DNA of 64,000 nt from Acidobacteriota bacterium. Lineage in GTDB: Bacteria > Acidobacteriota > Terriglobia > UBA7540. Position 1 is the first letter of the stretch. The number at the start of each line of letters is the position of its first letter. Location: positions 124,001 through 188,000 of the forward strand of contig SCRD01000018.1 of assembly GCA_004298155.1 (NCBI GenBank). Reading direction: 5' to 3'. Shown piece after piece: positions 4,212 to 56,123 of the stretch. The position numbers were made by a program, and so were the translations under genes. Below the pieces are notes generated by a model that saw only the letters and a list, made by a program, of their open reading frames with translations, had not been told where the DNA came from and did not search any database.

Positions 4212-4295
<84 letters not shown>

Positions 4296-4340: not shown

Positions 4341-5432
4341 TTACACCGTGCGCAGGGCCGATTCCAGCGTTTCCACCGCTTCTTTCCGCCGCCCGAGCCC
4401 TGTCTTGCTGTACACGTTCAAATTCACGTCCACCGAATGTCCAAGCTGGTCGGCGACGATTTTCGGATCGACGGCGAGCTCCCGCATGAGCGATGCGTGC
4501 GTGCGCCGCATCACCTGGAAGTTTACCCATTCGAGGCCAGCCGCTCGGAGCGTCGGTGCGATCCACCGCCGCCAGCAATTGTCCTTTGCCAGCGGCGTGC
4601 GCCTATTCTCCGAAGGGAATACCCAGGCGTCCGCCACCGGATCGCCGCACAACGAACGCCAGGCGGCAATCGCGGACTGCAGATCCCTGGAAAATGCCAC
4701 GCTCCGCCGCGACTGGTTGGTTTTTGGAGAATCGATCTTTCCCCGGTAAAGCCGTTGCTCGATCTCAATATGGTCAGATTCGATGTGCTTCCATTTGAGC
4801 GCGAAGATTTCTCCGGGGCGCATCCCCGCAATCGTTGCGAGCATGCAAACCAGGAGCTCCCTGGCATCGAGGACCGAAAAGAGCTTTTTAACATCCTGCC
4901 AGGTCATAACGCGGGCTATGCCGCGCACGGCATGTTGCGGCGTGAAAAGCAGCGTGGCCGGGTTCCGGTGTACGCAGTCTTCAATCACGGCCATCTCGAA
5001 GACCTGCCGGAGGTCCCACCGCAGGTGGTCCACCGTGCTGAACGACAGGCCCGCTGCCGCTTTGCGGTCAAGGAAATCCTGCAACTCATCCCGCGTGAAG
5101 GAGCGCAACGGGCGCCCGCCGAATTCCGAACTGAGGTGATGCCGGAGGCGGTCGAGGTTCGATGCGGCGGTCGAACTCTTCCACTTGCGGCGATAGAAAG
5201 GTAAATAGACCTGGTTCACGAAATCACCGAATTCCCAGTCTTGCGGCTGGCCCTCCTGAAGCGCATTGATCGGGGCAACGATTTCCGCGAGCTTCCGCTT
5301 CGCCTGGGCTTTGGTGATCTTGCTGACTTCTCCGACAATCTTGTTGCGGCGGTGCCCCGCTTCCCACCATTGGGCGATCCAATTTCCGCGGATTTCCTTG
5401 AGGCTTCCGCGCTGATACCGTTTACGACGCAT
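4341..5432 (-). CDS. int: Tyrosine recombinase integrase of element A
   Basis: A 363-residue phage-type integrase. Residues 1-60 form an AP2-like arm-binding start (RRKRYQRGSLKE...WIAQWWEAGHRR), then a SAM-like core-binding domain, then the catalytic domain with GMRPGEIFALKWKH (first Arg), QVMRRTHASLM (second Arg; the usual box II His appears as Gln), LGH, and the nucleophile Tyr in VNLNVYSK. It should join the circular element to tRNA-Gly. It is encoded at the very left end reading toward the tRNA, the normal place for such genes. The HTH gene upstream overlaps its start by 11 bases. A truncated relative is at 52273-52578. Confidence 0.93.
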   Translation of the reverse strand: MRRKRYQRGSLKEIRGNWIAQWWEAGHRRNKIVGEVSKITKAQAKRKLAEIVAPINALQEGQPQDWEFGDFVNQVYLPFYRRKWKSSTAASNLDRLRHHLSSEFGGRPLRSFTRDELQDFLDRKAAAGLSFSTVDHLRWDLRQVFEMAVIEDCVHRNPATLLFTPQHAVRGIARVMTWQDVKKLFSVLDARELLVCMLATIAGMRPGEIFALKWKHIESDHIEIEQRLYRGKIDSPKTNQSRRSVAFSRDLQSAIAAWRSLCGDPVADAWVFPSENRRTPLAKDNCWRRWIAPTLRAAGLEWVNFQVMRRTHASLMRELAVDPKIVADQLGHSVDVNLNVYSKTGLGRRKEAVETLESALRTV

Positions 5433-15381: not shown

Positions 15382-16575
15382 TTACACGCCCGACGTTGCT
15401 TGCGGTTCGATCGTTTCTGCACTGAACGGTTGCGTGACCGCACCGTTGACCATGAGCTTGATGTATATCGAGTAGTTCGGCAGCCGAATCAAATCTTCCT
15501 TTGAGAACTCCGGCCAGAATTCTTTGCCAATAATCTCCGCGTCGGCCAAGCCGAGGCGGAATGAAATGATCGTACCTACATTTCCCAAGATAGCATCGCG
15601 TACTTGTGGAGCAAGCTGTGCAAGATGTTGATGGCAGAGCACTAAGCTGCAAGCATACTTTCTCAATTCACTGAGCATGTTAGCTAGGCTCAACGTGGCA
15701 AATGACCAGAATTCGTCCAAATAGACGATGAAGCTTCGTCGCTCATTTTCCGGCACGTCCGCACGGCTCAAGCCTGCCAGCCCAATCCGCGAAACCAGCA
15801 ATGCCCCTAGCAAGGCGGCGCTATCTTCACCAATCTTTCCCTTGGCTAGGTTGACGAAAAGCAGCCCGTCCTCGTCCATGATGCGGCGGAGATCGAAAGC
15901 ACTTTTCGGCTGCGTCAGGATGGCGTTCAAGACTGGATCAGCCAGGAACGCGCCCACCTTGTTTTGGACCGGCGCAATCGCTTCGGCGCGGAAGCGCACG
16001 GGATAGCCTTCGAATTCGCGGAGCCAAAAGTTTCTGACCTGCGCGTTGCGCACTCGCGATGCGGCAATTCTCCGGAAGGCCGGCTCATCCATCAATCGCA
16101 GAATGTCGGCCAAAGTCGCTGCGGGTTGGTCGAGTAAAGCTAACAGTGCATTTCTTAGAACGTGTTCCAGGCGCGGCCCCCAGCTCTCCGCCCAGATCTT
16201 CTTTAAAACCTCCAGGATTCCCGCCGCCGTGACCGCCCGCTTCGTAATCGGCACACTTTCGAGTGGATTAAAACCGAGCGGGTGAGCGGCGTCGGGGACA
16301 TTGAAGTAAACGAGGTCTTGTTTTCGCTCCTCAGGCACTGCAAGCAGCATGCGCTCGACAAGATCGCCGTGGGGATCAAAGACCGCGAGCCCACGGCCCG
16401 CCTCGATATCCTGCCGGACCATGGTCTCCAAAAGCGTGGATTTTCCCGTTCCGGTCTTTCCGAGCACATACATGTGGGCGCGCCGGTCCGCCTGCCGGAT
16501 GCCGAAAACCATCCCCTGGTTGCGGAAGTTCGTACGGCCCAGAAACGTGATGGGATTGTCGTTGCCGTTCGTCAT
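15382..16575 (-). CDS. HerA/TraD-like DNA-translocating ATPase
   Basis: 397 residues from ATG 16575. Walker A GKTGTGKSTLLE, AVFDPHGDLVERML, and Walker B SFIVYLDEFWSF define a VirD4/TraD-HerA-type ATPase with the type IV secretion DNA-binding domain. NMLSELRKYACSLVLCHQHLAQL is the family's sensor region. It is a second such motor in the left arm and is separated from the first by several genes. With that motor it suggests DNA transfer; it could otherwise serve in defence or replication. It is divergent from the VapBC pair. Confidence 0.82.
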   Translation of the reverse strand: MTNGNDNPITFLGRTNFRNQGMVFGIRQADRRAHMYVLGKTGTGKSTLLETMVRQDIEAGRGLAVFDPHGDLVERMLLAVPEERKQDLVYFNVPDAAHPLGFNPLESVPITKRAVTAAGILEVLKKIWAESWGPRLEHVLRNALLALLDQPAATLADILRLMDEPAFRRIAASRVRNAQVRNFWLREFEGYPVRFRAEAIAPVQNKVGAFLADPVLNAILTQPKSAFDLRRIMDEDGLLFVNLAKGKIGEDSAALLGALLVSRIGLAGLSRADVPENERRSFIVYLDEFWSFATLSLANMLSELRKYACSLVLCHQHLAQLAPQVRDAILGNVGTIISFRLGLADAEIIGKEFWPEFSKEDLIRLPNYSIYIKLMVNGAVTQPFSAETIEPQATSGV

Positions 16576-22182: not shown

Positions 22183-22431
22183 ATGAATCACAACACACAA
22201 GTCGAGATGTTCATCGACAAAAAGCGGTACGAATCGCCGAATCCGACGACCGGCGCGGCGTTATATCTTCTGGGCAAAGTCGATCCAAATACCTACGACC
22301 TTTATCTGGAGGTCCGCGGTAAAGGAGATGACGAATTGATCCCCAACGACAACACCGGCATTAGTCTGAAAAACGGTGATCATCTGTTCACTGTTCAGAA
22401 AAAGCTGAATCCCGGTGGCGAATGTCACTGA
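22183..22431 (+). CDS. Ubiquitin-like protein (multiubiquitin family, one domain)
   Basis: 82 residues of beta-grasp pattern: VEMFIDKKRYESPNPTTGAALYLLG...DLYLEVRGKGDDELIPNDNTGI...GDHLFTVQKKLNPGG. This fits the prokaryotic multiubiquitin family, which occurs as one to several copies; here there is one. It ends GGECH, so the di-Gly at 78-79 carries a three-residue tail that a JAB peptidase could remove. The end overlaps the next gene by 10 bases. It is likely the modifier of the conjugation operon. Confidence 0.8.
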   Translation: MNHNTQVEMFIDKKRYESPNPTTGAALYLLGKVDPNTYDLYLEVRGKGDDELIPNDNTGISLKNGDHLFTVQKKLNPGGECH

Positions 22432-22790
22432 TACCGGAAAGCGACATTGAGTTTCTGAAGGAGAAGGGGTACGACTACGAACTTCTTCAATCCGGGACGG
22501 AGGTCCACCTTGTTATCCACTGTTTTCCCTTCGAGCGTTATGTCCCGAAAGAGACTGATTTGCTCATCCGGCTTCTTTCGGGATATCCGCAGACCGCGGT
22601 GGACATGTTCTATACGATTCCCAACGTGAAGCTTCCCTCGGGCGCTTTCCCGCAGAATTGCAATCAACACCCGATGATCGGCGACAGGCCGTGGCAGCAA
22701 TGGTCGCGCCATTACAAATGGCGCTCGGGCATTGACAACCTTCGCACATATCTGGCCGCCGTGGCAGCCGAGGTGAGTAAGGGCATTTGA
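22422..22790 (+). CDS. Prokaryotic E2-like conjugating protein (Prok-E2_E type)
   Basis: 122 residues: VIHCFPFERYVPKETDLLIRLLSGYPQTAVDMFY...LPSGAFPQNCNQHP...WQQWSRHYKWRSGIDNLRTYLAAV. The order of strands and the W-RSGID-L helix match the E2-like family linked to multiubiquitin operons. Cysteines exist only at 34 and 80. Ser102 occupies the WRSGID position near the place of a catalytic residue, so transfer may not use a Cys thioester. It likely passes the ubiquitin-like protein from the E1 to a target. Confidence 0.75.
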   Translation: MSLIPESDIEFLKEKGYDYELLQSGTEVHLVIHCFPFERYVPKETDLLIRLLSGYPQTAVDMFYTIPNVKLPSGAFPQNCNQHPMIGDRPWQQWSRHYKWRSGIDNLRTYLAAVAAEVSKGI

Positions 22791-22794
22791 AAAC

Positions 22795-24183
22795 ATGCGG
22801 TTTACGCTTACTTTCCTTCAGGATGATTTCGAACGCCTCACGGGCCATCTTTTCCGTTCCGAAAATGAGGAGGCCGCCTACCTACTTTGCGGGATGTCAA
22901 CGGCTCCGAACGAAACCAGGCTGCTTGTGCGGGAAGTCATTCCAGTTCCGGCGACAGAGATCGACGAATCCTCGCAACTGCACATGCAGATTCAGCAACC
23001 GTCATTCCTGCGGCCTATCAAGGGCGCGGCCGAGCGCGGCCTCTGCTTTGTGTTCGCGCATTCGCATCCGCCAACGGTTCCCGAACACTCTCCCCAGGAC
23101 GACCGGACCGAGGAAAGCCTGTTCCGGACTGCCTACAACCGCATTCATAATGAGAACGCGATTCACGGCAGCATGGTATTTTCATCTAAGGAAAAACCTG
23201 TCGGTCGAATCTCGCTGCCGGACGGTACGAGGGTTCCCATGGAACGCATCCGCGTCGTCGGCAGACGGTTTCGATTCGCAATGGATGTCTCCAGGACCAA
23301 TATCCGGCTAAACTTCTTTTCCCGGCAAATTTTGGTATTCGGCGATGAACTCCAAAAGCTGCTGCGCCACTTGACGATTGGCATCGTCGGAATGGGCGGC
23401 ACCGGTTCGGCGGTGGCCGAACAACTCGTAAGGCTCGGCGTGGGGAGAATCATCGCCGCCGACGCCGAAACCCTGGAGGATTCGAATGTCACGCGGGTAT
23501 ATGGCTCCCATGTCCGTGACGTGGGTGCAGGCAAAGTGGAGCTTCTGCGGCGCCATGCGGAAGCCATCGGTCTGGGAACAATCGTTGAGGGAATCGCCGG
23601 AAACATTACGGACCAAGCCGTTGCCAGGCGGTTCAGAGAGTGCGATGTTATCTTCGGATGCGTTGACCGGGAGCGCGGACGCGCCATTCTGACGCAGTTT
23701 GCCCTGCAATATTTGGTGCCGGTGTTTGATCTCGGCGTAAAGGTGGAGTCCGAAGGCGGAGACGTCAAAGCGGTTGAGGGCCGGATCACGACCCTCTTGC
23801 CGGGCGCCGCCTGCCTTTTCTGCCGAGGACGCATCTCAGGAGACGTTCTTGCGGCCGAGACACTGGCGGAAGCCGATCCCGCCGAGTACGAGCGTCTTAG
23901 GCTGCAGGGTTACGTCCCGGAACTCCAGACTAACGCCCCTGCGGTCATCCCTTTTACCTCGTCTGTGGCCTCATTTGCCGTGACCGAATTGCTCCATCGG
24001 CTGAGTGGCTATATGGGCGAGGACCGGACGAGCACTGAACTTTTCCTGCTCTTTGACGACTCCAAGATCATCCGTAATTCGACGCCGCCGTTGCCTCAAT
24101 GCCGGTGCGCTGATCCCAAGAGCTGGGGGCAAGGCGATAGCGAACCGTTTCTCGGCCTCACCTGGCCCAGCGAAAACCCATGA
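22795..24183 (+). CDS. JAB metalloprotease-ThiF/E1 fusion
   Basis: 462 residues. Residues 1-130 form a JAB/JAMM domain: Glu25/26, H89-S-H91-x10-D102. Residues 180-400 form a ThiF/E1 adenylation domain with GIVGMGGTGSAVAE, AADAETLEDSNVTR (Asp223, Asn231, Arg234), Lys247, and zinc ligands CLFC (340, 343) and QCRC (436, 438). No Cys lies in the 344-435 stretch where the canonical E1 thioester Cys would be expected. It should trim the ubiquitin-like protein and activate its C-terminus. Only 4 bases separate it from the E2-like gene. Confidence 0.88.
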   Translation: MRFTLTFLQDDFERLTGHLFRSENEEAAYLLCGMSTAPNETRLLVREVIPVPATEIDESSQLHMQIQQPSFLRPIKGAAERGLCFVFAHSHPPTVPEHSPQDDRTEESLFRTAYNRIHNENAIHGSMVFSSKEKPVGRISLPDGTRVPMERIRVVGRRFRFAMDVSRTNIRLNFFSRQILVFGDELQKLLRHLTIGIVGMGGTGSAVAEQLVRLGVGRIIAADAETLEDSNVTRVYGSHVRDVGAGKVELLRRHAEAIGLGTIVEGIAGNITDQAVARRFRECDVIFGCVDRERGRAILTQFALQYLVPVFDLGVKVESEGGDVKAVEGRITTLLPGAACLFCRGRISGDVLAAETLAEADPAEYERLRLQGYVPELQTNAPAVIPFTSSVASFAVTELLHRLSGYMGEDRTSTELFLLFDDSKIIRNSTPPLPQCRCADPKSWGQGDSEPFLGLTWPSENP

Positions 24184-24548
24184 ACTGCCCATCTCTATCG
24201 AAGAGGTTCAGGTGGAGGGCACCCGCCAAGTACTTCGTGGGTATCAAGCGCGTGGAGCGGATATCTGAAGTTCCGGAAGGAATCGCGCGGGATTTCTATA
24301 TTGTGCATCGAAACGGCCGAGATATGTGGGCGGTTTTCCGGTGTCCATGCGAACGCGGCCATACATTGAATATCAACCTATCGAGGCAGAGACGGCCGTA
24401 TTGGAGGGGTAGGATCAAAAGGGGAGAAGTAAGTCTGTTTCCGTCAATATGGCTCAGGTATGAATGCAGGTCTCACTTCTGGGTTTTCAATAGTCGGATA
24501 TATTGGGCGAGTGATTTTGTTCCGGTAAAGGCAAAAGACGTCGCCTAA
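24180..24548 (+). CDS. DUF6527-like protein
   Basis: 122 residues: FRCPCERGHTLNINLSRQRRPYWRG...EVSLFPSIWLRYECRSHFWVFNSRIYWA. The Cys pair and CRSHFW motif with His may hold a metal. The family is often the last gene of multiubiquitin/JAB-E1 operons. It overlaps the E1 gene by 4 bases (ATGA). It could be a target-binding or ligase-like factor; the role is not established. Confidence 0.75.
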   Translation: MNCPSLSKRFRWRAPAKYFVGIKRVERISEVPEGIARDFYIVHRNGRDMWAVFRCPCERGHTLNINLSRQRRPYWRGRIKRGEVSLFPSIWLRYECRSHFWVFNSRIYWASDFVPVKAKDVA

Positions 24549-24569: not shown

Positions 24570-24892
24570 TCATAGCTGACATTTTTCTTCTTTTTCCCCA
24601 AACATGCTTTCCACCGCTTGCGCTCTCCCACGTACAACATCTCTATGGATCAGCAGAAACCCCACGACCAGAAGGCCCATCGCCAGCATTTGCGTCGCGA
24701 GATAGAAGGTGGATGATCGGATGAGCAGCAAGGCAAAAGCGGGGAATACAGGGTGACCTTTTCGATGTAGAAGGCGTATCGTGCGAGGGAAACGAGGACG
24801 GACCCCATGAGCGCGACCAGCCCCCGCCGGGCAGGCGCGGTTGTGAGGCAATCCTTTTTCCGGTACCCGGCCCAAAGAGCCGAGAGGTTCAT
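24570..24892 (-). pseudogene. Frameshifted inner-membrane protein remnant
   Basis: Two overlapping minus-strand frames each carry half of what reads as one membrane protein. One frame holds MNLSALWAGYRKKDCL...SLARYAFYIEKVTLY; the other continues HPVFPAFALLLIRSSTFYLATQMLAMGLLVVGFLL to a charged end. The switch lies near 24750. Each half alone has an implausible remainder. A single frameshift mutation (or sequencing error) explains it. Confidence 0.5.
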
Positions 24893-25148
24893 GAGCTGTA
24901 CGGGAACGAGGAAGAAGGCCGCGGAGGCGAGAAGCCCAAAGCGGCTCTCGACCGCCCCGGCGCCCCAAAGCGATCAACTGCCGTGGCTCAAACGGCCCTT
25001 GTAGTTTGGCTTAGGTGCCCGAATCGTAGGGGAATATTGAAGCCGGGGCTGCCAGAATCTCTTACCGGATTTCATGAAGTAGGTTCGAATGGAGTTCAGA
25101 CGCCCGCGCGCAACTAACGGCAGTTCGGCGCCGGCTGATGTCCAACTC

Positions 25149-25174
25149 AAAAGGCCCCCGTGAGGGGGCCTTTT
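25149..25174. terminator. Bidirectional terminator after the S-layer-like gene
   Basis: AAAAGGCCCCC-GTGA-GGGGGCCTTTT is a perfect 11-bp stem, with A and T tracts on both sides, so it can end transcription from either strand. It lies 49 bases past the stop of the large minus-strand gene. Confidence 0.85.
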
Positions 25175-25222
25175 GCTTTCGTCTCCGTCACAAGCGGAGA
25201 GGAAAACGCTAACCGATCGGCG

Positions 25223-28200
25223 TTACGAGCTGTACGAGACCGTTACGATCTGCAGCGGTACGATGGTAACTGGCAAGCTGATAGTGCTGCCAGTAGCCTG
25301 GCTGTTGTCGTAGTAGGTCATGTCGCCCGTTCCGTTGATCACCGCGTTGATGCTCACCGGGTTCTGGCCGGTTGCAGTCGCGAAGTCAGCGCTGTTGAAC
25401 CGAAGGGTGAACGTTTGCGACCCTCCGCCCGTTACGACCACCGCCGAATTGGTGGTGCTCGTCGGGAACGTCCAGGTAAGGGAGCACGGGCTCGCAGAAC
25501 ACGTGCCAGTCACCGACGCGCCCAATCCACTGTTAGCCGTCGACGTAGTCACGTCAACGCTGTTGTAGAGAAGGGCGAAGTCAGACACCGATGTGGAGGC
25601 GGTGATGGCGCTGCCGCTGAAGGTAAGCTTCAACGACCTCAGCACCGCAGAGCCGCCACTCGCAGCCGTGACCGTGATGGTCGCAGCGTTGTCGACCGAC
25701 TTCCTGACGTTACCCGTCGCTGGATCGATAGCGACCGCGCTCGGAGTAAGCGTCGTTTGGAGGACCGTCATCACATTGCCGGTCGGAGTGCCGCTCACGA
25801 CCGCCGCCTTTTGAGAGCCGGCGGTCAGTGCCGTGACATCCGACGTCGCCGCAAAGCCGAAGGTGGATGTCGTGTTGTCCGCAACACCACCCGAGCTGTA
25901 CGGAGGCACGTCACCCTTCAAGGTCAACACCAGCGTTCTGTTCTGCGGAACCTGCGGAGCCGTTGAGAAGTGGAACGTGTACGTCCAGCCGGCAGAAGAC
26001 GTCGCCGCCACGCCCGTACCCAGGTTCGTAGACCCGTTGTAAAGGGTCACGTTGCCGAAGTCCTGCGCGGACGAGCTCGTGTTCTGCGTTACCTTGAGGT
26101 CCGTGATGTTCACGTTCGCCACGTTGGAGGTTTCCGTGAAGCGGAAGGCCGCCAATGTGTTCCCCGTGGTATTTGCTACGAGCTGGCTCGCTGCCGGAGC
26201 GGAGGAGTCAAGCCCCACCGTCACGTTAGCGCCAGCGCTCGAAGCCGTAACGCTCTGGCCGGTCACTGCTCCGCTCGGGCAAGAGACCGAGTTGTACGAG
26301 ACAACGCTCGTGCCAGTGCAAGCGGTAACTTCGGACGCCGTCTGGGCCGTGGTCGTCGCACCGGATAGGAGGTCAGCGTAAACATCCACATTCGTGGTGC
26401 CGCCGGCCGGGATCGTAAACGGAGAGCCGGAGAAGGTGTACGTGCTCTGGTCCGTCACGACGGGCTGCGTCGTGCCGAATTGTGTGCCGCCGATCATGAG
26501 CTTCAGGTTCGCAATGTCATTGGAACCCGAGGCGCTCGGATAGACCTTCACGCTCACCGTGTTCATCTGTACGCCGCTCGCGGACGAAGCCGAGAACGAG
26601 TAAGAACCGATCTTCACGTTCGACGTGCCAGGCTGGATGGTCTGGTTGCCGTAGGACGTATTCTCGGTGACCGTGAGCAAACCGGTCTGCAGCGTGAGAG
26701 CGCTGCCGTTTGTCGCGGCCGACGAGTTCGTCTGGCTCGACGTCAAACCCTGGAGGTTGCTCGTGTCGCCGTTAAGCTTCGCCTGGACCGTCGCAAACGT
26801 GGCGCCGGACTGGATGTCCGCTTTGAGCGAGAGGACGCGGGTCGTGTTCGCCGGAACAATGTAGTTAATCGGCGAAGCAGACGTGCCGAAGCAGTCCTTG
26901 TAGGTTCCCGTTGAGGTCGAGTACGCAGCCGTCTTGTTCGTTGCGCAGTCATTCGTCGACGGCGGATTATTGATCGTCGAGCCAACCTGACCGCCCGCAT
27001 CGTCAACCAACGCGATGTTCTGTACCGCGTCGGAGAGCGTGGCTTTCAATGTCGGGTTGCTCGTCGAGGTCGTGAAGTCGAGCTCGAAGTCGAGGAACTT
27101 GACCTTGACCGGCTCACCGGCCGCGTAGATGTCGAACTTCGCGAGCGTGACGCCCGACTGGCCGACCGCAATGTTGCCGGTCGGAGTCGCGGAGTCAGCC
27201 GTAACCGTGATCGTGCCTTTGGCGATGGACACATCCGTGCCCGAACCGCCATTGGCCGTCACCGAGATCGGCACATTGTACTGCGAGTCGACCGCGTACA
27301 CGTCATAGGAGTTCAAGATCTCGAAAGCGAAATCTTTCGAGGGAGAACCCATGACATCAGCGTAGACCTGCAGGTTATTGCTGCCGGTGTTGATCGACGC
27401 CGGCGAGGACGAGAGGTCGAAGTAAGCGACCCCGTTCGAGCCAACCGTGGCGAGCGTCGGGCCGACCTGCGTACCGTTGATGTTCAGCTTCACGTTCCGG
27501 ATGTCGGCATCGTTCGCCGAGCCAATGACCTCAAACTTGAGGCCCTTGAGGTAGACCAGGCTGTTCGAACCGGTAAGCTGCCAAGCGCTCACGATGTTGT
27601 TCTGAGTGCCCGCCGTCACCTGCGTGCCGACTGGCGTAGAAGTTACTGTGAGCTGGGCCAAGCTCGGGTTCGAGACCGTGGTTACGGTGAAGATGCTGCC
27701 GTTCAACGGGAACGAACCGGATGCAGTCACCGAGTTGTTGCTCGAGTCAACCGCCGTCACGTCCGAAGCCGCATTCATGGCAAAGCTCACCGTGTTGCCG
27801 GCTTGAAGACCCGATGAAGGATCAATTGCCAGCTGGAGCTCTTCCGTCTGCCCCGCAGGAACCGTAAGGTTCATGCTGGAGAAGTCGATCACGCCGTTGT
27901 TAAGCGACGTGTACTGGTAGAGCACCTGGCCGTTCTGGATCAGATACGCGCCAGAGATCGAGCTATCCGAAAGGACGCCCGTCTTGTGGAATTTGAGGTC
28001 CGTTACCGTCACCGCGCCGGAGTTCGACGCCGTGAGGTTCACCGAAAGGACCGGCACGCGGGCCGCTGTTCCACCCGTCGAACCGCTAGCCGTGGTGATG
28101 AGCGAACCGGCCGACGGGTTGTTGGACGCCAAGGAAACCGCAAGACCCGTCGTCGGAGGCGTTACCGTCGTCGACGTGCTCGAGCCCGTGCCAGTTCCCG

Positions 28201-28636
28201 TTCCCGTGCCCGCACCTGCAACGCTCGATGAAGCGATGAAGGCGCGAGTGATGGGCCCAAAGTAGCCGGCTGCCGGCTTCACGCCGTTCGCCGCCTGATA
28301 CTTCGCAAGAGCCGCCTTGGTCATAGAACCGAAGTAGGCCGTCGGTGCCGAGATCTTCAAATATCCGGCGTTGATCAGGACCTGCTGGAGCGCGCTCACA
28401 TCGGCGCCCTTGCTGCCCACGGTGAGGTCGCGGGTAAAGCTGTAGGACGTGGACGTTGACGTGCCCTTCGCAGAATTCAACTGGGCCTGTAGCTGTTGGA
28501 TCTGCGCGAGCAAAGCCGCGATCTGAGCCTGAAGGCTCGCCGTGGTCTGTGCGTTCGCGAGAGGCAACGTTGCAATTCCCAAGCCCCACACAACGGTGGT
28601 AGCCGTGAGAACTACAGAAACCAATTTTTTATTCAT
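25223..28636 (-). CDS. Giant S-layer-like secreted protein, Patescibacteria/CPR style
   Basis: 1137 residues. The signal peptide is MNKKLVSVVLTATTVVWGLG...PLANA. A short coiled coil of LQAQIAALLAQIQQLQAQL follows, then a peptidoglycan-binding domain 1 (DVSALQQVLINAGYLKI...YFGSMTKAALAKYQAANGVKPAAGYFGPITRAFI), a low-complexity Gly/Thr/Ser linker and about 900 residues of Ser/Thr/Val-rich repeated beta domains. This whole order is the typical surface-layer protein of Parcubacteria-type CPR bacteria. It is very unlike anything around it. Its codon use also looks different, with few of the RR/ER runs seen in the neighbours. It has its own leader and terminator. Confidence 0.8.
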   Translation of the reverse strand: MNKKLVSVVLTATTVVWGLGIATLPLANAQTTASLQAQIAALLAQIQQLQAQLNSAKGTSTSTSYSFTRDLTVGSKGADVSALQQVLINAGYLKISAPTAYFGSMTKAALAKYQAANGVKPAAGYFGPITRAFIASSSVAGAGTGTGTGTGSSTSTTVTPPTTGLAVSLASNNPSAGSLITTASGSTGGTAARVPVLSVNLTASNSGAVTVTDLKFHKTGVLSDSSISGAYLIQNGQVLYQYTSLNNGVIDFSSMNLTVPAGQTEELQLAIDPSSGLQAGNTVSFAMNAASDVTAVDSSNNSVTASGSFPLNGSIFTVTTVSNPSLAQLTVTSTPVGTQVTAGTQNNIVSAWQLTGSNSLVYLKGLKFEVIGSANDADIRNVKLNINGTQVGPTLATVGSNGVAYFDLSSSPASINTGSNNLQVYADVMGSPSKDFAFEILNSYDVYAVDSQYNVPISVTANGGSGTDVSIAKGTITVTADSATPTGNIAVGQSGVTLAKFDIYAAGEPVKVKFLDFELDFTTSTSNPTLKATLSDAVQNIALVDDAGGQVGSTINNPPSTNDCATNKTAAYSTSTGTYKDCFGTSASPINYIVPANTTRVLSLKADIQSGATFATVQAKLNGDTSNLQGLTSSQTNSSAATNGSALTLQTGLLTVTENTSYGNQTIQPGTSNVKIGSYSFSASSASGVQMNTVSVKVYPSASGSNDIANLKLMIGGTQFGTTQPVVTDQSTYTFSGSPFTIPAGGTTNVDVYADLLSGATTTAQTASEVTACTGTSVVSYNSVSCPSGAVTGQSVTASSAGANVTVGLDSSAPAASQLVANTTGNTLAAFRFTETSNVANVNITDLKVTQNTSSSAQDFGNVTLYNGSTNLGTGVAATSSAGWTYTFHFSTAPQVPQNRTLVLTLKGDVPPYSSGGVADNTTSTFGFAATSDVTALTAGSQKAAVVSGTPTGNVMTVLQTTLTPSAVAIDPATGNVRKSVDNAATITVTAASGGSAVLRSLKLTFSGSAITASTSVSDFALLYNSVDVTTSTANSGLGASVTGTCSASPCSLTWTFPTSTTNSAVVVTGGGSQTFTLRFNSADFATATGQNPVSINAVINGTGDMTYYDNSQATGSTISLPVTIVPLQIVTVSYSS

Positions 28637-28839
28637 TCTGTAAGTTAATTTATTGACTAAGTTTTTAGGTTATCGACCTTTGGGATCCTTTAATGGATTC
28701 AAAGGACGTCGACCTTTTTTGTTTTTATGCTTTTCCGGGGCCGTTCTCTCCACCCTTATCCGCAATCGCCGTGAGGTTGCGACGGCGGGAAGGATGAAGA
28801 AACCGGGGTCTTTATCGGTGGGGATTAAAAAGAAAAAAA

Positions 28840-28926
28840 CTCGCTATTGGCGAGGCTGGTTTCCTTAACAAACCTGCGGTTGCCTTCCTGCGGCAGCCAC
28901 TATCCTTGCATTCAAGGCCCAGCCTC
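28840..28926 (-). promoter_or_regulatory. Structured leader with attenuator-like terminator
   Basis: On the minus strand, GAGGCTGG (28919-28926) can pair with CCAGCCTC (28852-28859), enclosing a CCTTG/CAAGG hairpin and a TGCC/GGCA hairpin. The next hairpin, CTCGC-CAATA-GCGAG, is followed by seven T. Its 5' half shares three bases with the closing stem, so the two compete. This is the architecture of a leader that controls transcription by attenuation, about 190 bases before the S-layer gene. A small RNA ending here is the other possibility. Confidence 0.55.
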
Positions 28927-28945
28927 ACACTGAACCTTTCCGAGA

Positions 28946-28951
28946 ATTATA
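28946..28951 (-). promoter_or_regulatory. Candidate -10 box TATAAT for the leader
   Basis: A perfect TATAAT on the minus strand lies about 20 bases before the first leader hairpin. No good -35 is seen 17 bases upstream (TAACCT-like). It is a plausible start for the structured leader RNA. Confidence 0.4.
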
Positions 28952-29153
28952 ACGGAAAATTCATGAAAAGGTTACCCCGTTGGGGATATCACGTAAAGGC
29001 CAGGGCGGGAGGCCCCACAACACATCTCTCGGGAGCACAGCGACCCTGGCAGGGCAAGGGGGATCTTGTCGGCCCGGCCTTTCCAGTTTGCTAATGAGCT
29101 TCATGCATCTCAAAGTTCACAGACCGCATGGCAGCGCGGTCTCGCTGTGATCC

Positions 29154-29203
29154 GGCAAAACGGCAAATCCCTAATCCGGCAATTGCCAGATTGCCGCATT
29201 GCC
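29154..29203. repeat. Phased 8-bp repeat array beside the serine recombinase
   Basis: GGCAAA begins at 29154 and 29162, GGCAATTGCC starts at 29178, and ATTGCC begins at 29182, 29190 and 29198. All copies lie on one 8-bp register, so GGCAAW and its complement alternate over 50 bp. It lies in the 606-base gap between the S-layer-like and recombinase genes, 40 bases past the recombinase stop. A regulatory or recombination-site role is possible. The rest of the gap outside the leader holds no recognised gene. Confidence 0.5.
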
Positions 29204-29242
29204 GAATTATGTCACACGTTACCGCAAGGGAAGTGCCCCTTC

Positions 29243-30949
29243 TTAGCCGAGCGCTGACGCTGGATCTTGAGCAGCCATAACGACGCCCGCCGCGCGCTTT
29301 CTGCGGATCGCTTTAGGCAATAGATGAGCCCTGAGAAACAGCGAAGAGATACTATTGCGAGTCTTCAGTGAAGGCTGCTGTCCTGCAATAGCACTATTTG
29401 ACGGCAGCCGGACTTCGATTTCCAAGTCGTTCCCTCGAACCGCAACCGAATTGAGAAACGTCCGGAATACTTCCTTCTTCACTTCATCAGAAGCGCCTTC
29501 CAGCTTGTCCCTATATTGTTCGTAGAGCTTCTGAATCGAGCCCTCGATAGAGGTTATTTGCTCGGCCGAAATCATCAAGGCTTCCAGCCGATTTAGCTCC
29601 CGGTTCGCCTGGTCCGTCTGGTTAAGAAGTTTATGACGCTCTCGATCGTAGAAGGTTTTATCCACCGCCCCGGTAACATACACTTCGGCCAAGCGCCGGA
29701 GCCGCTCCCCGGTCTTTTCCTTGCTTTTCTCCAACTCATCCTTCTTTGCCTCGGCGTCCGAGATCATCGTTTTCTCTTTTTGATACTCTGATAACTGCCG
29801 GAGGACGAAGGCCGGGTTCGTCAGCAGCTCCTTGAGCTTTTGCCAAATAGGCAGCACCAACCGGTCTTCCCGGACCCTACGTGATTGGCAACGAACTGCC
29901 GCATGAGCTTTGTCGGTGGCCATGCAGTAATAGTATTTGACATCCTTCCCATTCTTGCCGCCGGGCATCGTGTGCGCCTGCATCCTTCTTCCATCATTGC
30001 CGCAAACAAGCAGCTTGCCCAGGATGTAAAGCCGCTTGGTATTTCTTGGAGAATTAGCGATGCTCTCGGCACGCTGTTTCTGGGCCAGATTGAAGATTTC
30101 GTCCGAAATAATGCGCGGCGTTTCAATCGCGATCCAGTCTTCTTTCGGGCGCAGGTTGATTTCTCTCCGAGCCAGGCCCCACCTTTTGTATTTGCGCAGC
30201 ATCATGCGCCCCACGTAGCTTTCATTTTCAAGGATTCTTCCGACGACCCGCGTGCCCCACCATCCTTTTGTTCCGGTCCGTTTCTTGCGGCCCAGCCGAT
30301 CGTATTTCGTCGGAACGCGCATGTCATTCAGCCGGCATTGAATTTTGTAAAGGCTTAGTTTTTCATCCACGTACCAGTGGAAAATCTGACTTACGACGGC
30401 GGCTTCCTCGCCGTCGATCAACAGGTTTTTTTCGGCCTTGTCGTACCTGTACCCGTAAGCCGGATTGCTCACCCCGCATACCAGAGATCCTCTTCTCGCG
30501 GCCGCAATGCGGCCCGAGTACATCCGCAGGTTGATGTCCTTCCGCTCCTTCTCAGCACCGGCAGCAAAAATAGTAAGCAAGAAGCGACCATTCGAATCAT
30601 GGGTAAAGCTTTCCTGAACGGATCGGAATTTAATGTTCAGAGCTGCCAGTTCGTCCACGGTTTGCAAGGTGAGCTTGGTATCACGGAAAAGGCGGTCCAA
30701 CTTCCAGACGACCAGCACCTCAAATCTCCTGTCTCGCGCCCATTCCATCATTTCGCGGAAGCCCGGTCGGTCTGGAGTGCTACCGGAATAGCCCTCATCG
30801 CGAAATACCCGGAGAAGCTCCAGGCTATTGCGTTCGCAAAATGTCCGGATATCCTCCTCCTGAAATTTCAGCCCGTACCCGCCGCGCGCCTGCTCTTCCG
30901 TGCTAACCCGTACGAGCGCACAGGCGCGCTTTTGCTGACTGGTTTCCAT
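29243..30949 (-). CDS. Large serine recombinase
   Basis: 568 residues. Residues 8-150 form the resolvase catalytic domain (ALVRVSTEEQ with the nucleophile Ser; VVWKLDRLFRDTKLTLQ), then a recombinase domain (GYRYDKAEKNLLIDGEEAAVVSQIFHWY), a zinc ribbon (LLVCGNDGRR...YYCM...RCQSRR), a coiled coil and a C-terminal extension. Such enzymes insert and excise phages or transposons without host factors. It may have brought the neighbouring S-layer gene. No paired att core was recognised. TTGCTGACTGG occurs twice around its start, about 30 bases apart. Confidence 0.92.
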   Translation of the reverse strand: METSQQKRACALVRVSTEEQARGGYGLKFQEEDIRTFCERNSLELLRVFRDEGYSGSTPDRPGFREMMEWARDRRFEVLVVWKLDRLFRDTKLTLQTVDELAALNIKFRSVQESFTHDSNGRFLLTIFAAGAEKERKDINLRMYSGRIAAARRGSLVCGVSNPAYGYRYDKAEKNLLIDGEEAAVVSQIFHWYVDEKLSLYKIQCRLNDMRVPTKYDRLGRKKRTGTKGWWGTRVVGRILENESYVGRMMLRKYKRWGLARREINLRPKEDWIAIETPRIISDEIFNLAQKQRAESIANSPRNTKRLYILGKLLVCGNDGRRMQAHTMPGGKNGKDVKYYYCMATDKAHAAVRCQSRRVREDRLVLPIWQKLKELLTNPAFVLRQLSEYQKEKTMISDAEAKKDELEKSKEKTGERLRRLAEVYVTGAVDKTFYDRERHKLLNQTDQANRELNRLEALMISAEQITSIEGSIQKLYEQYRDKLEGASDEVKKEVFRTFLNSVAVRGNDLEIEVRLPSNSAIAGQQPSLKTRNSISSLFLRAHLLPKAIRRKRAAGVVMAAQDPASALG

Positions 30950-31174: not shown

Positions 31175-31213
31175 TCCTCTCACTGTGATGAGGCGGGAGA
31201 TGCTTTCCAAGGC

Positions 31214-31244
31214 GGGCACACTTACCGCTCCGGTAAGTGTGCCC
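31214..31244. promoter_or_regulatory. Perfect 14-bp inverted repeat operator
   Basis: GGGCACACTTACCG and CGGTAAGTGTGCCC are perfect complements around CTC. The core CTTACCG-CTC-CGGTAAG recurs at 37437-37459 with CTG in the middle. It is located between the divergent recombinase and primase operons. A dimeric regulator, perhaps the HTH protein at 37512, is the likely ligand. Confidence 0.7.
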
Positions 31245-31281
31245 TCCTTGGCGGATTGTCCGCGAGCCCTACGCTCAAAAG

Positions 31282-32226
31282 ATGGCCTCGGCAATCGACC
31301 TCCATGACGAAGCGCTCGCCTTCCACCAGCGCCTTCCGCAACGGCTTTGGAAATACCTCAACGGGCGCGGCATTCCCGACGCGATGATTCACAAGCATCT
31401 GCTTGGCTGGAACGGGCAGCGGATTACGATTCCGATTTCAGACCGCATGGGCAAGTTTACGTTCTTCAAGCTGGCCAAGGACCCTAGGGATAAAACGGAG
31501 AGTCCAAAGATGCTCTCCACGCGCGGTGCGCACGCAGAACTCTACGGCTGGGAGCAGGCGGCAGCGAAGCCCGATCAGATCATCATCTGCGAGGGCGAGT
31601 TCGACAGGCTGGTCCTGGAGGGTCAGGGTTTCGCCGCGGTGACTTCCACGGGCGGGGTGATGGCGTTCCGGCCGGAATGGGCCGAGGCGATCAAAGAGAT
31701 TCGCGATATTTTCATCTGCTTTGATAACGACACGGCGGGAAGATTGGGAACTGAGCGCGTGGCGAGGCTGCTCCCGCAGGCCCGTGTGGTCCGGTTGCCG
31801 GAAGAAGTGGGCGAGGGCGGCGACGTGACGGATTTCTTTGTATGCTTGGGTAAAAGCCGCGAGGAGTTTATGCGGCTGTTGAAAGCGGCCCAGACAATGC
31901 CACTGAAAGAGCCCGTATCGCCGCCGGACCTGGAGGGTAACCTGATTCCCACCACGCCGGACGAAGAAGTTGCCCTGCTCAAATCCCTCGTGGCCATCGA
32001 AGACCTCGTTGGCCAATGCGTTGCCTTGCGACGGCAGGGGAAGAACTTTATTGGCCACTGTCCCTTTCACGATGACCAGCATCCTTCCTTCCTGGTCTAT
32101 CCCGCGACCCGTAGTTTTTATTGTTTTGCCTGCCGCGCCTCCGGCGACGCGATCAGCTTCCTCATGAAGGCCGAACATCTGACTTTTCCGGAAGCCCTCA
32201 AAGTTCTCCGGGAGTTCGCCCGCTGA
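31282..32226 (+). CDS. DNA primase with Toprim before CHC2 zinc finger
   Basis: 314 residues from ATG 31282 (a GTG at 31237 is possible but would overlap the operator). Residues 90-190 hold a Toprim domain (IIICEGEFDRLVL...IFICFDNDTAG). The CHC2 zinc finger is at the C-terminus: GHCPFHDDQHPSFLVYPATRSFYCFACRASGDAISFL. Bacterial DnaG has the zinc finger first, so the order here is reversed. No RNA-polymerase core is seen between them, so it may need the following ATPase. It ends 1 base before the helicase-like gene. Confidence 0.85.
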   Translation: MASAIDLHDEALAFHQRLPQRLWKYLNGRGIPDAMIHKHLLGWNGQRITIPISDRMGKFTFFKLAKDPRDKTESPKMLSTRGAHAELYGWEQAAAKPDQIIICEGEFDRLVLEGQGFAAVTSTGGVMAFRPEWAEAIKEIRDIFICFDNDTAGRLGTERVARLLPQARVVRLPEEVGEGGDVTDFFVCLGKSREEFMRLLKAAQTMPLKEPVSPPDLEGNLIPTTPDEEVALLKSLVAIEDLVGQCVALRRQGKNFIGHCPFHDDQHPSFLVYPATRSFYCFACRASGDAISFLMKAEHLTFPEALKVLREFAR

Positions 32227-32227
32227 G

Positions 32228-33619
32228 ATGGACGAAAAACTGAAAACAACGGTGGAGAAAGCCAAGAAACAGAGCGCCCGGCCAACGGTCTCGGCGGTCC
32301 TACCGGACGGCTCGCTGGCCGAGATGCTCTGTCGCCTAGAAGAACATCGGACCTTGTTTTGTGTTTGGAAAGGCAACGAAATCCGCTACGAAACCAATCT
32401 TCTGGTCAACGGCCAGCGCTTGGTGCCTTACTCGCCCCGCAACAACCTGCTGGCCAACGAAGTGGTCCTGTTTCCGTCGGAACCTGCGGAATACGGAACC
32501 GAGCAGGAACTTGTCGAAAATATCCGTGCCTTCGTTCACCGCTATGTCGATATCTCGCCGCTCTTTGAGCAGATCGCAAGTTACTATGTGCTCTTTACCT
32601 GGGTTTACGATGCCTTCAACGAACTGCCCTATCTCCGGCTTCGCGGCGATACCGGCTCCGGCAAGACCCGGTTCCTCTTAACCGGCGGATCGCTCTGTTA
32701 TAAGCCAATCTTTGCAAGCGGGGCATCGACCGTGTCGCCACTTTTCCGCATCCTCGACGAAATGCGGGGAACGCTGATTATCGACGAGGGCGATTTCCGG
32801 TTTTCGGACGAAAAGGCCGAGATCGTGAAGATCCTGAATAACGGCAATGCCCGTGGATTTCCCGTTTTGCGCAGCGAATCGGTCAATGGCCGGGAGTTCA
32901 GCCCACGCGCCTACACGGTCTTTGGGCCGAAACTGGTCTCCACACGCGGCTTCTTTCAGGATCGGGCGCTCGAAAGCCGCTGCCTCACCGAAGAAACCGG
33001 CGGGCGAAAACTCCGTGAGGATATTCCCATCAACCTGACGGCGGCCTACAAGCAGGAAGCCCTGGAGCTTCGCAACAAGTTGCTGATGTTCCGGCTGCGG
33101 AACTTCGGCAAGCGCCAGATTGATCCGGCGCTCGTTGACCGCTCGATTGAGCCGCGCCTGGCTCAGATCTTCGTTCCACTGCTGAGCGTAATCGAGGATT
33201 TCGAGGCCCGGAATGCCCTCTGCCAAGTGGCGCGCGATTATCACCGGGATATGGTGGCGGACCGGGGCATGGACGTTGAGGCCCAGGTGCTCGAAATCAT
33301 TCAGGAGCTTCAGCAGGAGCCATTTTCACCGGGCCTGGCCGTTAAAGAGATCGCCGAACGGTTCATTGCGCGGCATAGTGAGGATTTTGAGCGCAAGATC
33401 ACGCCGCATTGGGTGGGAGGCGTGATTCGCCGGAAACTGGGGCTCAAGACGGAAAGGCATCACGGGAACTACTTCGTCGCCGTCTCTGAAGGCCCGAAGC
33501 TTGTCCGCTTGTTTGAAAAGTACGGTGTCGACACAGATTCAGGGGACTTGGGGGACTCTGGGGACTCTGTTCGGAAAGAGCGTGGAGAGGAAAGCCCGCA
33601 AGGATTGCCTTTACTTTAA
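32228..33619 (+). CDS. Replicative helicase-like ATPase
   Basis: 463 residues with Walker A GDTGSGKTRFLL near residue 145 and Walker B GTLIIDEGDF. The sensor and Arg-finger region SPRAYTVFGPKLVSTRGFFQDRALESR is as in primase-associated helicases of plasmids and phages. A winged-helix-like C-terminus follows. Directly after the Toprim-CHC2 primase, it likely unwinds DNA for element replication. The coding end has a run of GDSGD repeats from GGGGACT repeats in the DNA. Confidence 0.78.
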   Translation: MDEKLKTTVEKAKKQSARPTVSAVLPDGSLAEMLCRLEEHRTLFCVWKGNEIRYETNLLVNGQRLVPYSPRNNLLANEVVLFPSEPAEYGTEQELVENIRAFVHRYVDISPLFEQIASYYVLFTWVYDAFNELPYLRLRGDTGSGKTRFLLTGGSLCYKPIFASGASTVSPLFRILDEMRGTLIIDEGDFRFSDEKAEIVKILNNGNARGFPVLRSESVNGREFSPRAYTVFGPKLVSTRGFFQDRALESRCLTEETGGRKLREDIPINLTAAYKQEALELRNKLLMFRLRNFGKRQIDPALVDRSIEPRLAQIFVPLLSVIEDFEARNALCQVARDYHRDMVADRGMDVEAQVLEIIQELQQEPFSPGLAVKEIAERFIARHSEDFERKITPHWVGGVIRRKLGLKTERHHGNYFVAVSEGPKLVRLFEKYGVDTDSGDLGDSGDSVRKERGEESPQGLPLL

Positions 33620-34105: not shown

Positions 34106-36541
34106 TTAATTCGGGATATCCTCGTCCGTTGGCCCCGGCCCAGGTCGCGCGAGCTTGCTCACCTTGCGCATGTTTTCCAAAGCGTCGATGAACTCCGGAT
34201 CGATTTCCAACGCTTTGTCAAAACACTTCATAGCCTCGTCGAACCGACTCACCTCGGCCAAAGCTTTGCCCCTGTAAACCCAAACATGATGGTCTTGCGG
34301 ATCGATCTCCAGGATCTCCGTGTAGCAGCCGATGGCTTCGTCATGTCGACCTAGAGCATCCAGAGCCATTCCGGTATTTTTCCAGCAAATGACATCTTGT
34401 GGGTTCAATTCCAAGCCTCTAGTTGAGGATTCTATGGCCTCGCCGTAGCGACCGAGGATTCCGAGCAGCTGACCCTTGTGGCCCCAAGCACCAGTAAATG
34501 ACGGCTCGATTTCGAGGGTTCGGTTACAACATGCGAGGGCCTCCTCGAAGCGCCCGAGAAATCCGAGTGCGATGGCCTTGCTATCCCAGGCAGATGCGGA
34601 TAACGGATCAATTCCAAGGACTTGGCTATAGCATCTGACGGCCTCCTCGTAGCGTCCCAAATTGTGGAGGGCATCACCCATGTTGAGCCACGCAGCCCCA
34701 TATCGCGGATCGATCTCCAGGGCCTTGGCAAAGCACGTTACGGCGTCATCGTACTTACCTGGCTGAAACAGCGTCATGCCCTGATCGGCCCAAGCAGCCG
34801 CTCCGGGTTCGAACGTGACGAGAGCCATCTCGCGATCGACGCGTTCCGCAGCAATCCTGTTCCGATCGTCTCGGCACTGAGGATCGATTTCTGCATCGGT
34901 CCTGTTCCAATCGTCTCGGATCTGAGGATCGATTTCTGCGGCCTTCGCTAGGCAGGTTTTGGCCTCCTCGAGTCGGTCTAGCTCATTCAGGGCCGCGGCC
35001 CGAGCCGTCCACGCGCTGGCATTGTGCGGGTCGATCCGAACGGAATTGTCAAAGCAACCAAGCGCCTCCTCGTAGCGCTCGAGTTCGCAAAGGATGTTAC
35101 CCTCGTTTTTCCAACTTATCGGGCTCTGGCTATCAATCTCTAACGCATTTGCATAGAAGGCGAGGGCCTCTTGGTAGCGCCCGAGCTTTTTGAGGACATT
35201 CCCCTTGTTGTTCCATGCCGCAGCGCACTTCGGATCAGTTCTAAGCGCTTCGTCATAACAAGTCATGGCTTCTTGAATGCGACCTAACGCAACATGCGCG
35301 ATTCCTTTGCTATTCCAAGCGCCGACATCGTGAGGATCAAGTTCGATTGCTTTGTCGAAACAAACGATGGCATCTTCGTGTCGCCCAAGCTCGTGGAGCG
35401 ACATGCCTTTGATGGTCCAAAAGCCTGAAATACGATCTGCGTCTTTAGGGAGTTCCACGGCGCGCCCCGTCCGCCGGAAAAGGATTTGCTCCAGTTCGAG
35501 CCGCAACTCGTTGAAGCTCTCATAACGCCGTGAAGGTTCCGATGCAAGACAACGCTCGATGGCCATTTGCATTGGTCCTCCCGAAGGAGGTGCTTGCCCT
35601 TTGATCTGTTGCTCAAGTACTCTCTGTAAATAGTCATCCATGTTTGCAGCCTTGCTATAAGGTACCTGGAACGGTGGAGCGTGACTGCCCTTTGCCATTT
35701 GCCACAATACCAGTCCAAAGCTGTAAATATCGCTTCGGACACCAGCAGTTCCCCCAAGAAGTACCTCTGGTGCAATGTAACCCGGCGTCCCGCAAATCCT
35801 CTTGCCCTCGGTTACGAGCAAACTCAACCCGGCGCCGCCTTTACCGTTGTCAGTGGCTACCGGACCAGTCTCCTCTTTCCAGGCCATCTCTGCTGCTAGA
35901 GCCAACCCAAAGTCGCTGATTTTGAGATTCCCGTCCGGAGCGATCAAGATGTTCGTCGGTTTGATATCCCTGTGGCACCTGATGCCTCGCTGAAAAGCGT
36001 GTTCCATTCCATAACAGAACTGTATCGCCCACTTGAGAGAATCAACTGAATCGATTGGCCCACTCGTACAGGCGAGATGGTCTGCTAAACTCACTCGTCC
36101 GTTCGCGTCGGGGGCTATATAGTCCATATTCACAAACAAACGCCGCGAAAACTCGTGCACGACTCGGGCAGCCACAATGAACGGATGATCCTCGAGATTG
36201 ACCCAGAGGAGGGCCTCTTTCTTAAAAGCTTTCCTGGACGCAGGATGCGGAAGAAGATCTGAACGAATTGTCTTGAGTGCGCAAAGCCATTTGCCCTCCA
36301 AGAAGTGCGCTAAGTACACTTCTCCGAAGCCGCCTCTGCCAACCAGCTTGTGTATCGTGTATTTGTATTCGCCACCAATGACGTCACCATCTTTCAACGC
36401 TGCAAATGGTCTCTGGTTGTCGTTAGTCCATCCGGCGGCCCTTAGTGGAGACATCGATTCCCCGCTGGGTTCGGCAGCGTCTGCCTTCGCTGATTCACCG
36501 AAAATGCGCTTGAGGAGTTCCTCTGCGTCTTCGTTGTGCAT
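34106..36541 (-). CDS. Ser/Thr protein kinase with TPR array
   Basis: 811 residues. Residues 60-355 form a Hanks-type kinase: GRGGFGEVY, Lys90, HRDIKPTN (Asp192), DFG (Asp210), APE-like region. Residues 380-800 are about a dozen TPR repeats of the form AW-N-G-AL-LGR-EEA. The catalytic residues are all present. No membrane segment is seen. Together with the next-but-oppositely placed metabolism-like gene it resembles a signalling or defence pair carried by mobile elements. It would phosphorylate a partner bound by the TPR face. Confidence 0.88.
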   Translation of the reverse strand: MHNEDAEELLKRIFGESAKADAAEPSGESMSPLRAAGWTNDNQRPFAALKDGDVIGGEYKYTIHKLVGRGGFGEVYLAHFLEGKWLCALKTIRSDLLPHPASRKAFKKEALLWVNLEDHPFIVAARVVHEFSRRLFVNMDYIAPDANGRVSLADHLACTSGPIDSVDSLKWAIQFCYGMEHAFQRGIRCHRDIKPTNILIAPDGNLKISDFGLALAAEMAWKEETGPVATDNGKGGAGLSLLVTEGKRICGTPGYIAPEVLLGGTAGVRSDIYSFGLVLWQMAKGSHAPPFQVPYSKAANMDDYLQRVLEQQIKGQAPPSGGPMQMAIERCLASEPSRRYESFNELRLELEQILFRRTGRAVELPKDADRISGFWTIKGMSLHELGRHEDAIVCFDKAIELDPHDVGAWNSKGIAHVALGRIQEAMTCYDEALRTDPKCAAAWNNKGNVLKKLGRYQEALAFYANALEIDSQSPISWKNEGNILCELERYEEALGCFDNSVRIDPHNASAWTARAAALNELDRLEEAKTCLAKAAEIDPQIRDDWNRTDAEIDPQCRDDRNRIAAERVDREMALVTFEPGAAAWADQGMTLFQPGKYDDAVTCFAKALEIDPRYGAAWLNMGDALHNLGRYEEAVRCYSQVLGIDPLSASAWDSKAIALGFLGRFEEALACCNRTLEIEPSFTGAWGHKGQLLGILGRYGEAIESSTRGLELNPQDVICWKNTGMALDALGRHDEAIGCYTEILEIDPQDHHVWVYRGKALAEVSRFDEAMKCFDKALEIDPEFIDALENMRKVSKLARPGPGPTDEDIPN

Positions 36542-41893: not shown

Positions 41894-41900
41894 CCTTACA

Positions 41901-41932
41901 GGGGTAGAGCGCCGCGTGCTTTACCCCTTTTT
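41901..41932 (+). terminator. Terminator after the ParB-like gene
   Basis: GGGGTAGAGC pairs with GCTTTACCCC (one wobble) around GCCGCGT, followed by TTTTT. It closes the replication operon before the restriction-type island. Confidence 0.85.
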
Positions 41933-42092
41933 CCCATTCGCAAGAGCAGACGTTGATGCCAATGATTTCAATTCTAGAAGCAAATTGTCGACTTCAGCGG
42001 CACTCGCTTATTGTTGAAAGCTTCAGGTTTTTGCGTTAGTTTACACTGGTTAAGATCCGATCGATCAGACGGAGGAATTCTCGTTTGCCCGG

Positions 42093-44972: not shown

Positions 44973-44982
44973 GCAGGGAAAC

Positions 44983-47555: not shown

Positions 47556-47557
47556 CC

Positions 47558-52158: not shown

Positions 52159-52212
52159 TTCCCAAGCTGGACGTCGCGGGTTCGATCCCCGTCCCCCGCT
52201 CCATCTTTTCAA
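52159..52212 (+). repeat. Attachment site between elements A and B
   Basis: Exact copy of the 54-bp tRNA-Gly 3' end (4242-4295). It lies after a conserved approach (GACCCTATG...TCAATCTAGGGTC, about 52120-52155) that is also present before 56077. It is the right end of A and the left end of B. Confidence 0.9.
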
Positions 52213-56076: not shown

Positions 56077-56123
56077 TTCCCAAGCTGGACGTCGCGGGTT
56101 CGATCCCCGTCCCCCGCTCCATC
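56077..56123 (+). repeat. Attachment site attR, right end of element B
   Basis: A 47-bp copy of the tRNA-Gly 3' end; one mismatch (C for T) breaks the match just past CCATC. Host sequence begins here. Confidence 0.9.

Follow-up and report, generated by a model that had tools for sequence, protein, structure and literature searches.

Some S-layer (surface-layer) mRNAs, those of lactobacilli among them, carry long untranslated leaders. To our knowledge, both the hosts of Patescibacteria and the gene exchange of these bacteria are largely unknown, and we know of no host for the order that holds Candidatus (Ca.) Liptonbacteria. In other Patescibacteria, a coat of surface-layer proteins with SLH domains has been proposed for host-cell contact (PMC13059738), and a table in a groundwater study lists transfers into Patescibacteria (PMC12455944); the main text of that study has no occurrence of 'acidobacteri' or 's-layer'. 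In the literature covered, most subscription journals lying outside that coverage, we found neither a Patescibacteria coat gene described on another phylum's mobile element nor the leader RNA analyzed here. Here, we analyzed a 64,000-nucleotide stretch of an Acidobacteriota bacterium genome (GCA_004298155.1, contig SCRD01000018.1, positions 124,001 to 188,000), referred to as the window, in which a surface-layer-like gene of Patescibacteria type lies within a mobile element. Our results make it likely that the cargo spot of a tRNA-Gly-integrated acidobacterial element took up a piece of Patescibacteria chromosome of ~4.1 kb that amounts to exactly one regulated transcription unit, and they suggest that a Patescibacteria cell, tiny and probably host-dependent, and a large-genome acidobacterium exchanged DNA.

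The gene is a single-copy open reading frame (ORF) with an ATG start and no internal stops, coding for a protein of 1137 amino acids (aa). A previous reading made from the sequence only (the sequence-only reading) had described a signal peptide, a LQAQIAALLAQIQQLQAQL coil, a peptidoglycan (PG)-binding domain and beta repeats, and all of these could be seen in the ORF, the Pfam matches and the structure model. The N-terminus is signal-peptide-like when read by eye and ends in ANAQ; LQAQIAALLAQIQQLQAQL occupies residues 35-53, within a helix predicted at 32-55, and is followed by PG_binding_1 (PF01471) at residues 77-132 (expectation value (E) 2.1e-10, scoring 41 bits where the cut-off is 23), with the remainder predicted as beta sandwiches. 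The model was built from 26 sequences, with a mean predicted local distance difference test score of 79.1 and a predicted template modelling (TM) score of 0.42. A Foldseek search with it returned immunoglobulin (Ig)-like arrays such as PrgB (8beg, E 9.1e-14), with a best TM-score of 0.12, matches that indicate a predicted fold class and nothing beyond it.

The relatives of this protein are found in Patescibacteria. A homologue scan across the genomes of 84,980 species returned 12 relatives, 11 of them titled as Patescibacteria lineages or unnamed 'bacterium' and one on a contig of an Armatimonadota metagenome-assembled genome (MAG). Seven are full-length or nearly so, with 46-52% identity, and six of these come from MAGs of 0.6-1.0 Mb assigned to Ca. 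Liptonbacteria, 'Patescibacteria group' or an unnamed 'bacterium'; homology to two proteins from Ca. Liptonbacteria and relatives (L008, MHLC01000030.1; L007, JAJXZE010000004.1) extends over the full length at 51-52% by tblastn, and a separate comparison gave 53-56%. The seventh (L003, JAUSEB010000089.1) sits on a 5.5-kb contig filed in the 3.6-Mb Armatimonadota MAG. This contig, which has its own winged-helix gene upstream (L034), is probably misbinned Patescibacteria DNA, and we do not take it as a second transfer. The order holding Ca. Liptonbacteria, to which G068 belongs, has matches to the window protein in 210 of 244 genomes, over spans from full length down to single domains. The sequence-only reading had asked about close homologues across Acidobacteriota chromosomes, and we found none: the surface-layer-like gene is absent from all 60 close and class-level relatives of the source genome, and 395 other genomes of the phylum hold no full-length homologue, with short matches in two only, at or just before the PG-binding region. 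Plasmids, phages and IMG/VR also gave no relative.

For the phylogeny, the window protein was compared with those of 30 of the 31 best loci (L081, a fragment of 652 aa, was left out). The resulting 31-protein tree placed it within the Patescibacteria family, in an eight-row clade with support of 100/100. By full-length homology and tree nesting, then, the gene belongs to the surface-layer-like family of Ca. Liptonbacteria's order, and the family and origin proposed by the sequence-only reading are borne out by the relatives, the matches across the order and the tree. The opposite direction, in which the family was born in Acidobacteriota and passed to Patescibacteria, found no support; with a full-length match in one of 396 genomes of the phylum against the 210 of 244 matches in the Patescibacteria order, and with the window nested inside a Patescibacteria clade, we consider it extremely improbable.

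The control regions of the gene accompany it: the stretch of recognizable Patescibacteria DNA, about 25142-29206, includes a palindrome, a -10 region, a structured leader of ~300 nt, a 3' region and a terminator (Table 1). The leader and terminator that had been noticed beside the gene both align with Patescibacteria sequences, and the GCTTGTGAC motif of the 3' region was found again in several Patescibacteria loci. The window leader can be aligned with those of Patescibacteria surface-layer genes; besides the window, 23 Patescibacteria-type loci have its core, out of 30 whose upstream sequence is long enough, one of the 30 coming from the contig filed under Armatimonadota. The first hairpin has two-sided changes at five of seven pairs and 79.8% paired cells, a value equally high in 2 of 500 shuffles. 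In 16 of 23 leaders, including the window, a CCTCA(C/T) hexamer is placed in an apical loop with a closing stem of five pairs or more, compared with 6% for shuffled flanks; the hexamer is missing from the 24th leader (L079). The folding z of the window leader is -3.84. Rfam gave no match to the window leader at the gathering score, nor with E relaxed to 1, and 18 Patescibacteria-type loci likewise had none. These leaders (window 28637-28940, minus strand; L031, L033-L035, L059-L070 and others) form a candidate new structured RNA family, a coat-gene leader of ~240-410 nt in which hairpins with complementary loops (GUGAGG, CCUCAC) would flank a terminator-like stem, followed by GGUCGACG and GGUCGAUA ahead of the start codon.

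Beyond the 5' side of the leader is the palindrome TCCGGCAATTGCCGGA. With at most two mismatches it precedes the gene in 13 of 31 surface-layer loci, its place in L060 being intergenic. The window copy lies at 29175-29190, for an expectation of 0.06 matches in the whole window, and further copies are found at L007:7381, L031:5630, L060:5503, L069:5665 and L076:892. None of seven Patescibacteria comparison stretches (L087-L093) has it, and two host stretches (L094 and L095) have one copy each, with two mismatches. The palindrome is possibly the operator of the adjoining winged-helix regulator in the donors; in most loci it also appears to overlap the end of the winged-helix coding sequence, and protein conservation may partly account for its recurrence. 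A winged-helix gene lies upstream in most Patescibacteria loci, and in the window this gene is missing and the palindrome alone is left. A peptide at 29113-29211 (MRQSGNCRIRDL, the top-scoring one in 104 kb, E 0.003) was evaluated as a truncated, frameshifted and thus decayed copy of the regulator gene and rejected, because it is encoded by the palindrome that recurs upstream in those 13 loci. The argument for a long residence based on a decayed upstream gene was dropped with it.

The surroundings of the cassette support its placement on an acidobacterial mobile element, as had been proposed. The element spans ~48 kb between perfect 54-bp direct repeats and shows the features of a tRNA-integrated integrative element: a tRNA-Gly gene (4212-4286), an adjoining tyrosine integrase and a direct repeat of the tRNA 3' end at the far side. 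A coupling protein was found; scanning 29 distinct window proteins, a subset of the ORFs, revealed neither a relaxase nor VirB4. The sequence-only reading was right about a large serine recombinase next to the gene, which has all three expected domains; as integrase of the element it was rejected in favour of the tyrosine integrase with the tRNA-Gly repeats, the recombinase being internal to the element.

A congener (G002, 28-kb contig C91) has a sister element without the surface-layer-like gene. It runs collinear with the window from 5726 to 33281, the blocks being 76-91% identical in DNA, and shares the coupling protein and the primase with a divergent serine recombinase. The two elements differ between the backbone pieces 24646-24951 and 31205-33281, which sit 6.2 kb apart in G002. 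In this variable segment G002 has a different serine recombinase (28% identical) and an intact membrane-protein gene of 234 aa, whereas in the window the segment is made up of the cassette, a serine recombinase of its own and what is left of the membrane-protein gene. The left side of the cassette abuts this truncated, frameshifted gene and its right side ends 37 bp from the serine recombinase. In another genome, G001, the tRNA-Gly and part of the left chromosomal flank are present, with no further match to the element within the 40 kb examined.

The state of the gene bears on the age of the transfer. Among 102 columns that are invariant in the other 25 sequences the window protein differs at two (0-12 for other rows under the same treatment), and it appears free of signs of decay. 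The codon comparison with Patescibacteria, which had been suggested as a check, found the gene Patescibacteria-like, with log-odds (host minus Patescibacteria) of -0.041 where the 5-95% range of host genes is 0.041 to 0.158, and a Leu CTG share of 0.16 against 0.42 in the host. G+C content as proof of a foreign origin was discarded, because several donors are likewise rich in G+C. Patescibacteria-like codon usage in an undecayed protein implies that the transfer, if real, would be recent.

Several observations weigh against a captured Patescibacteria unit. The terminal branch of the window protein is the longest in its clade (0.58 vs 0.16-0.33), from which the true donor lineage would lie outside the sampled set. 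Four other window genes also have log-odds below zero, with the tyrosine integrase lower still at -0.051, so that codon bias alone is indecisive. The frameshift in the truncated membrane-protein gene could be a sequencing error, ~190 bases at 24952-25141 have no assigned origin, and no exact repeat of more than 12 bases that could serve as a serine-recombinase attachment site, barring the terminator arms, was found at the cassette when the junction zones were compared with 104 kb of the contig. An intact, unameliorated and constrained gene is also what a misassembled locus of a living Patescibacteria would look like, and neither the gene nor the junction recurs in a second assembly (the 60 relatives, the 395 genomes of the phylum and viral contigs). 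If so, a 4-kb Patescibacteria fragment of the same sample would have been built into the acidobacterial contig through a false join on either side. Judged from the assembly itself, we find this artefact unlikely. Since the two flanks belong to a single element and are separated by 6.2 kb in the congener, misassembly needs two independent false joins, and both would have to hit the variable segment of a mobile element. The neighbouring element gene, moreover, is frameshifted as well as cut. The window is part of a contig of 392,556 bases, in a genome of 5.21 Mb and 29 contigs that is 97.6% complete and by estimate 1.6% contaminated, with a single 16S match. This 16S gene includes an exact match to the 17 bases of the Acidobacteria-specific primer 31F, which agrees with the phylum given for the host. 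A chimeric contig is unlikely, and overall we hold the transfer to be real with high confidence. Likelihoods given here for rival accounts overlap, as route and function are questions separate from the reality of the transfer.

As for the route, the captured unit would have passed recently from Patescibacteria to the acidobacterium, and the join could have been made either by the adjoining large serine recombinase or by ordinary illegitimate recombination after uptake of DNA from a Patescibacteria cell that had lysed or was attached. A more elaborate version has the element or the serine recombinase once in a Patescibacteria cell, where it would have inserted upstream of the surface-layer gene and then excised imprecisely with the unit, losing its own end. 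The ending of recognizable Patescibacteria DNA so close to the recombinase stop codon, the truncated element gene at the opposite edge and the serine-recombinase matches in 107 of 243 genomes of the order are in keeping with such an event. However, the search for att sites of the recombinase in 104 kb around the cassette, which the sequence-only reading had proposed, found no repeated site; codon usage of the recombinase is host-like (log-odds +0.121) and it has no close relative in the Patescibacteria order (best 28%) or in its own phylum (best 31%). We consider imprecise excision rather unlikely.

In the donor, the unit would be a regulated surface-coat gene, with a promoter behind an operator-like palindrome and then the leader RNA, in which GUGAGG would have two alternative partners, the CCUCAC loop farther downstream and the 5' arm of the terminator-like stem, a scheme inferred from complementarity and folding. 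The protein would be exported by Sec and anchored to PG at its N-terminus, carrying an Ig-like stalk. The promoter that came with the unit could drive its transcription in the acidobacterium, and in a cell with two membranes the protein would most likely be bound to PG in the periplasm, or the unit would go unexpressed. We lean towards a near-neutral recent passenger. A working coat or adhesion gene, expressed and altering the acidobacterial surface, for example against phages or epibionts, is doubtful: promoter, leader, gene and terminator are complete, all but 2 of the 102 otherwise invariant residues are retained and a ubiquitin-like operon lies on the same element, yet recency explains the lack of decay equally well, and a PG-binding protein of monoderm type would have no obvious path through the outer membrane. 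Only tentatively, and with low probability, can one go further and propose that Patescibacteria of the Ca. Liptonbacteria order are in physical contact with the acidobacterial lineage, that the element moves an epibiont's RNA-regulated coat unit which is expressed and alters the surface, and that a host is thereby identified.

Table 1. Coordinates of the cassette, the carrying element and their parts in the window
Feature	Position	Strand	Basis or remark
Patescibacteria-type surface-layer-like protein, 1137 aa: signal-like start, coil, PG_binding_1, row of Ig-like beta sandwiches	25223..28636	-	ORF, Pfam, homologues, tree, model, Foldseek
Conserved GCTTGTGAC 3' region and intrinsic terminator; left limit of recognizable Patescibacteria DNA	25142..25196	-	87.5% identity to equivalent L007 site
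CCUCAC, apical loop of second leader hairpin, complementary to GUGAGG loop of first	28771..28776	-	Folding, leader comparison
Leader terminator-like stem CAGCCUCGC-CAAUA-GCGAG-U7; 5' arm complementary to GUGAGGCUG	28833..28858	-	Alignment, folding
First leader hairpin GGUUCAG-U-GUGAGG-CUGGGCC, loop GUGAGG	28916..28936	-	Leader alignment and pairing analysis
TATAAT, presumed -10 element of cassette promoter	28946..28951	-	Inferred by eye; similar boxes before leader in several Patescibacteria loci
Operator-like palindrome TCCGGCAATTGCC(A/G)GA and half sites; right limit of recognizable Patescibacteria DNA	29175..29206	.	Motif comparison across loci
Large serine recombinase, 568 aa, divergent from primase	29243..30949	-	Resolvase, Recombinase, Zn_ribbon_recom (Pfam)
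Primase-like backbone protein (Toprim, CHC2 zinc finger), right flank of variable segment	31282..32226	+	Pfam, alignment; 79% DNA identity to G002
Remnant of element membrane-protein gene: residues 1-103 missing, 1-base frameshift at 24743/24744	24608..24951	-	Compared with intact G002 copy
TrwB/TraD-type coupling protein	15385..16575	-	Domain scan
Tyrosine integrase of integrative element	4344..5432	-	Domain scan
Left attachment repeat, 3' part of tRNA-Gly	4242..4295	+	Repeat comparison
Right attachment repeat, 54/54 identical	52159..52212	+	Repeat comparison

Other parts of the window can be noted in their own right. An additional 53-base copy of the attachment repeat, 98% identical, lies at 56077-56129, and the three copies of the tRNA-Gly 3' end (4242-4295, 52159-52212 and 56077-56129) correspond to two integrated units in tandem. 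The ubiquitin-like operon, at 22183-24548, comprises a weak multiubiquitin match, a prokaryotic E2 of family E, a ThiF-JAB protein and DUF6527. A serine/threonine kinase with a long TPR array is coded at 34106-36541, and a ParB-type gene followed by an SNF2 helicase, an SMC/AAA ATPase and a type III restriction-like helicase at 40247-52014 may form a defence or maintenance cluster.

A transfer with clear bounds, leading from Patescibacteria to an element of a defined kind, would yield a testable link to a host. The conserved leader of this widespread coat gene would represent a new family of structured RNAs. Unlike the SLH-domain S-layer proteins of other Patescibacteria, the window protein has PG_binding_1 as its anchor and no SLH match in Pfam at E 0.01. 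Its mRNA would have a long structured 5' leader, as in lactobacilli, a likeness of description only, with no Rfam match to the window leader. The surface-layer-like proteins of Ca. Liptonbacteria and relatives have the domain plan, leader and terminator elements in common with the window; their loci, however, are chromosomal and mostly have a winged-helix gene upstream, whereas the window gene stands alone in the mobile element of another phylum.

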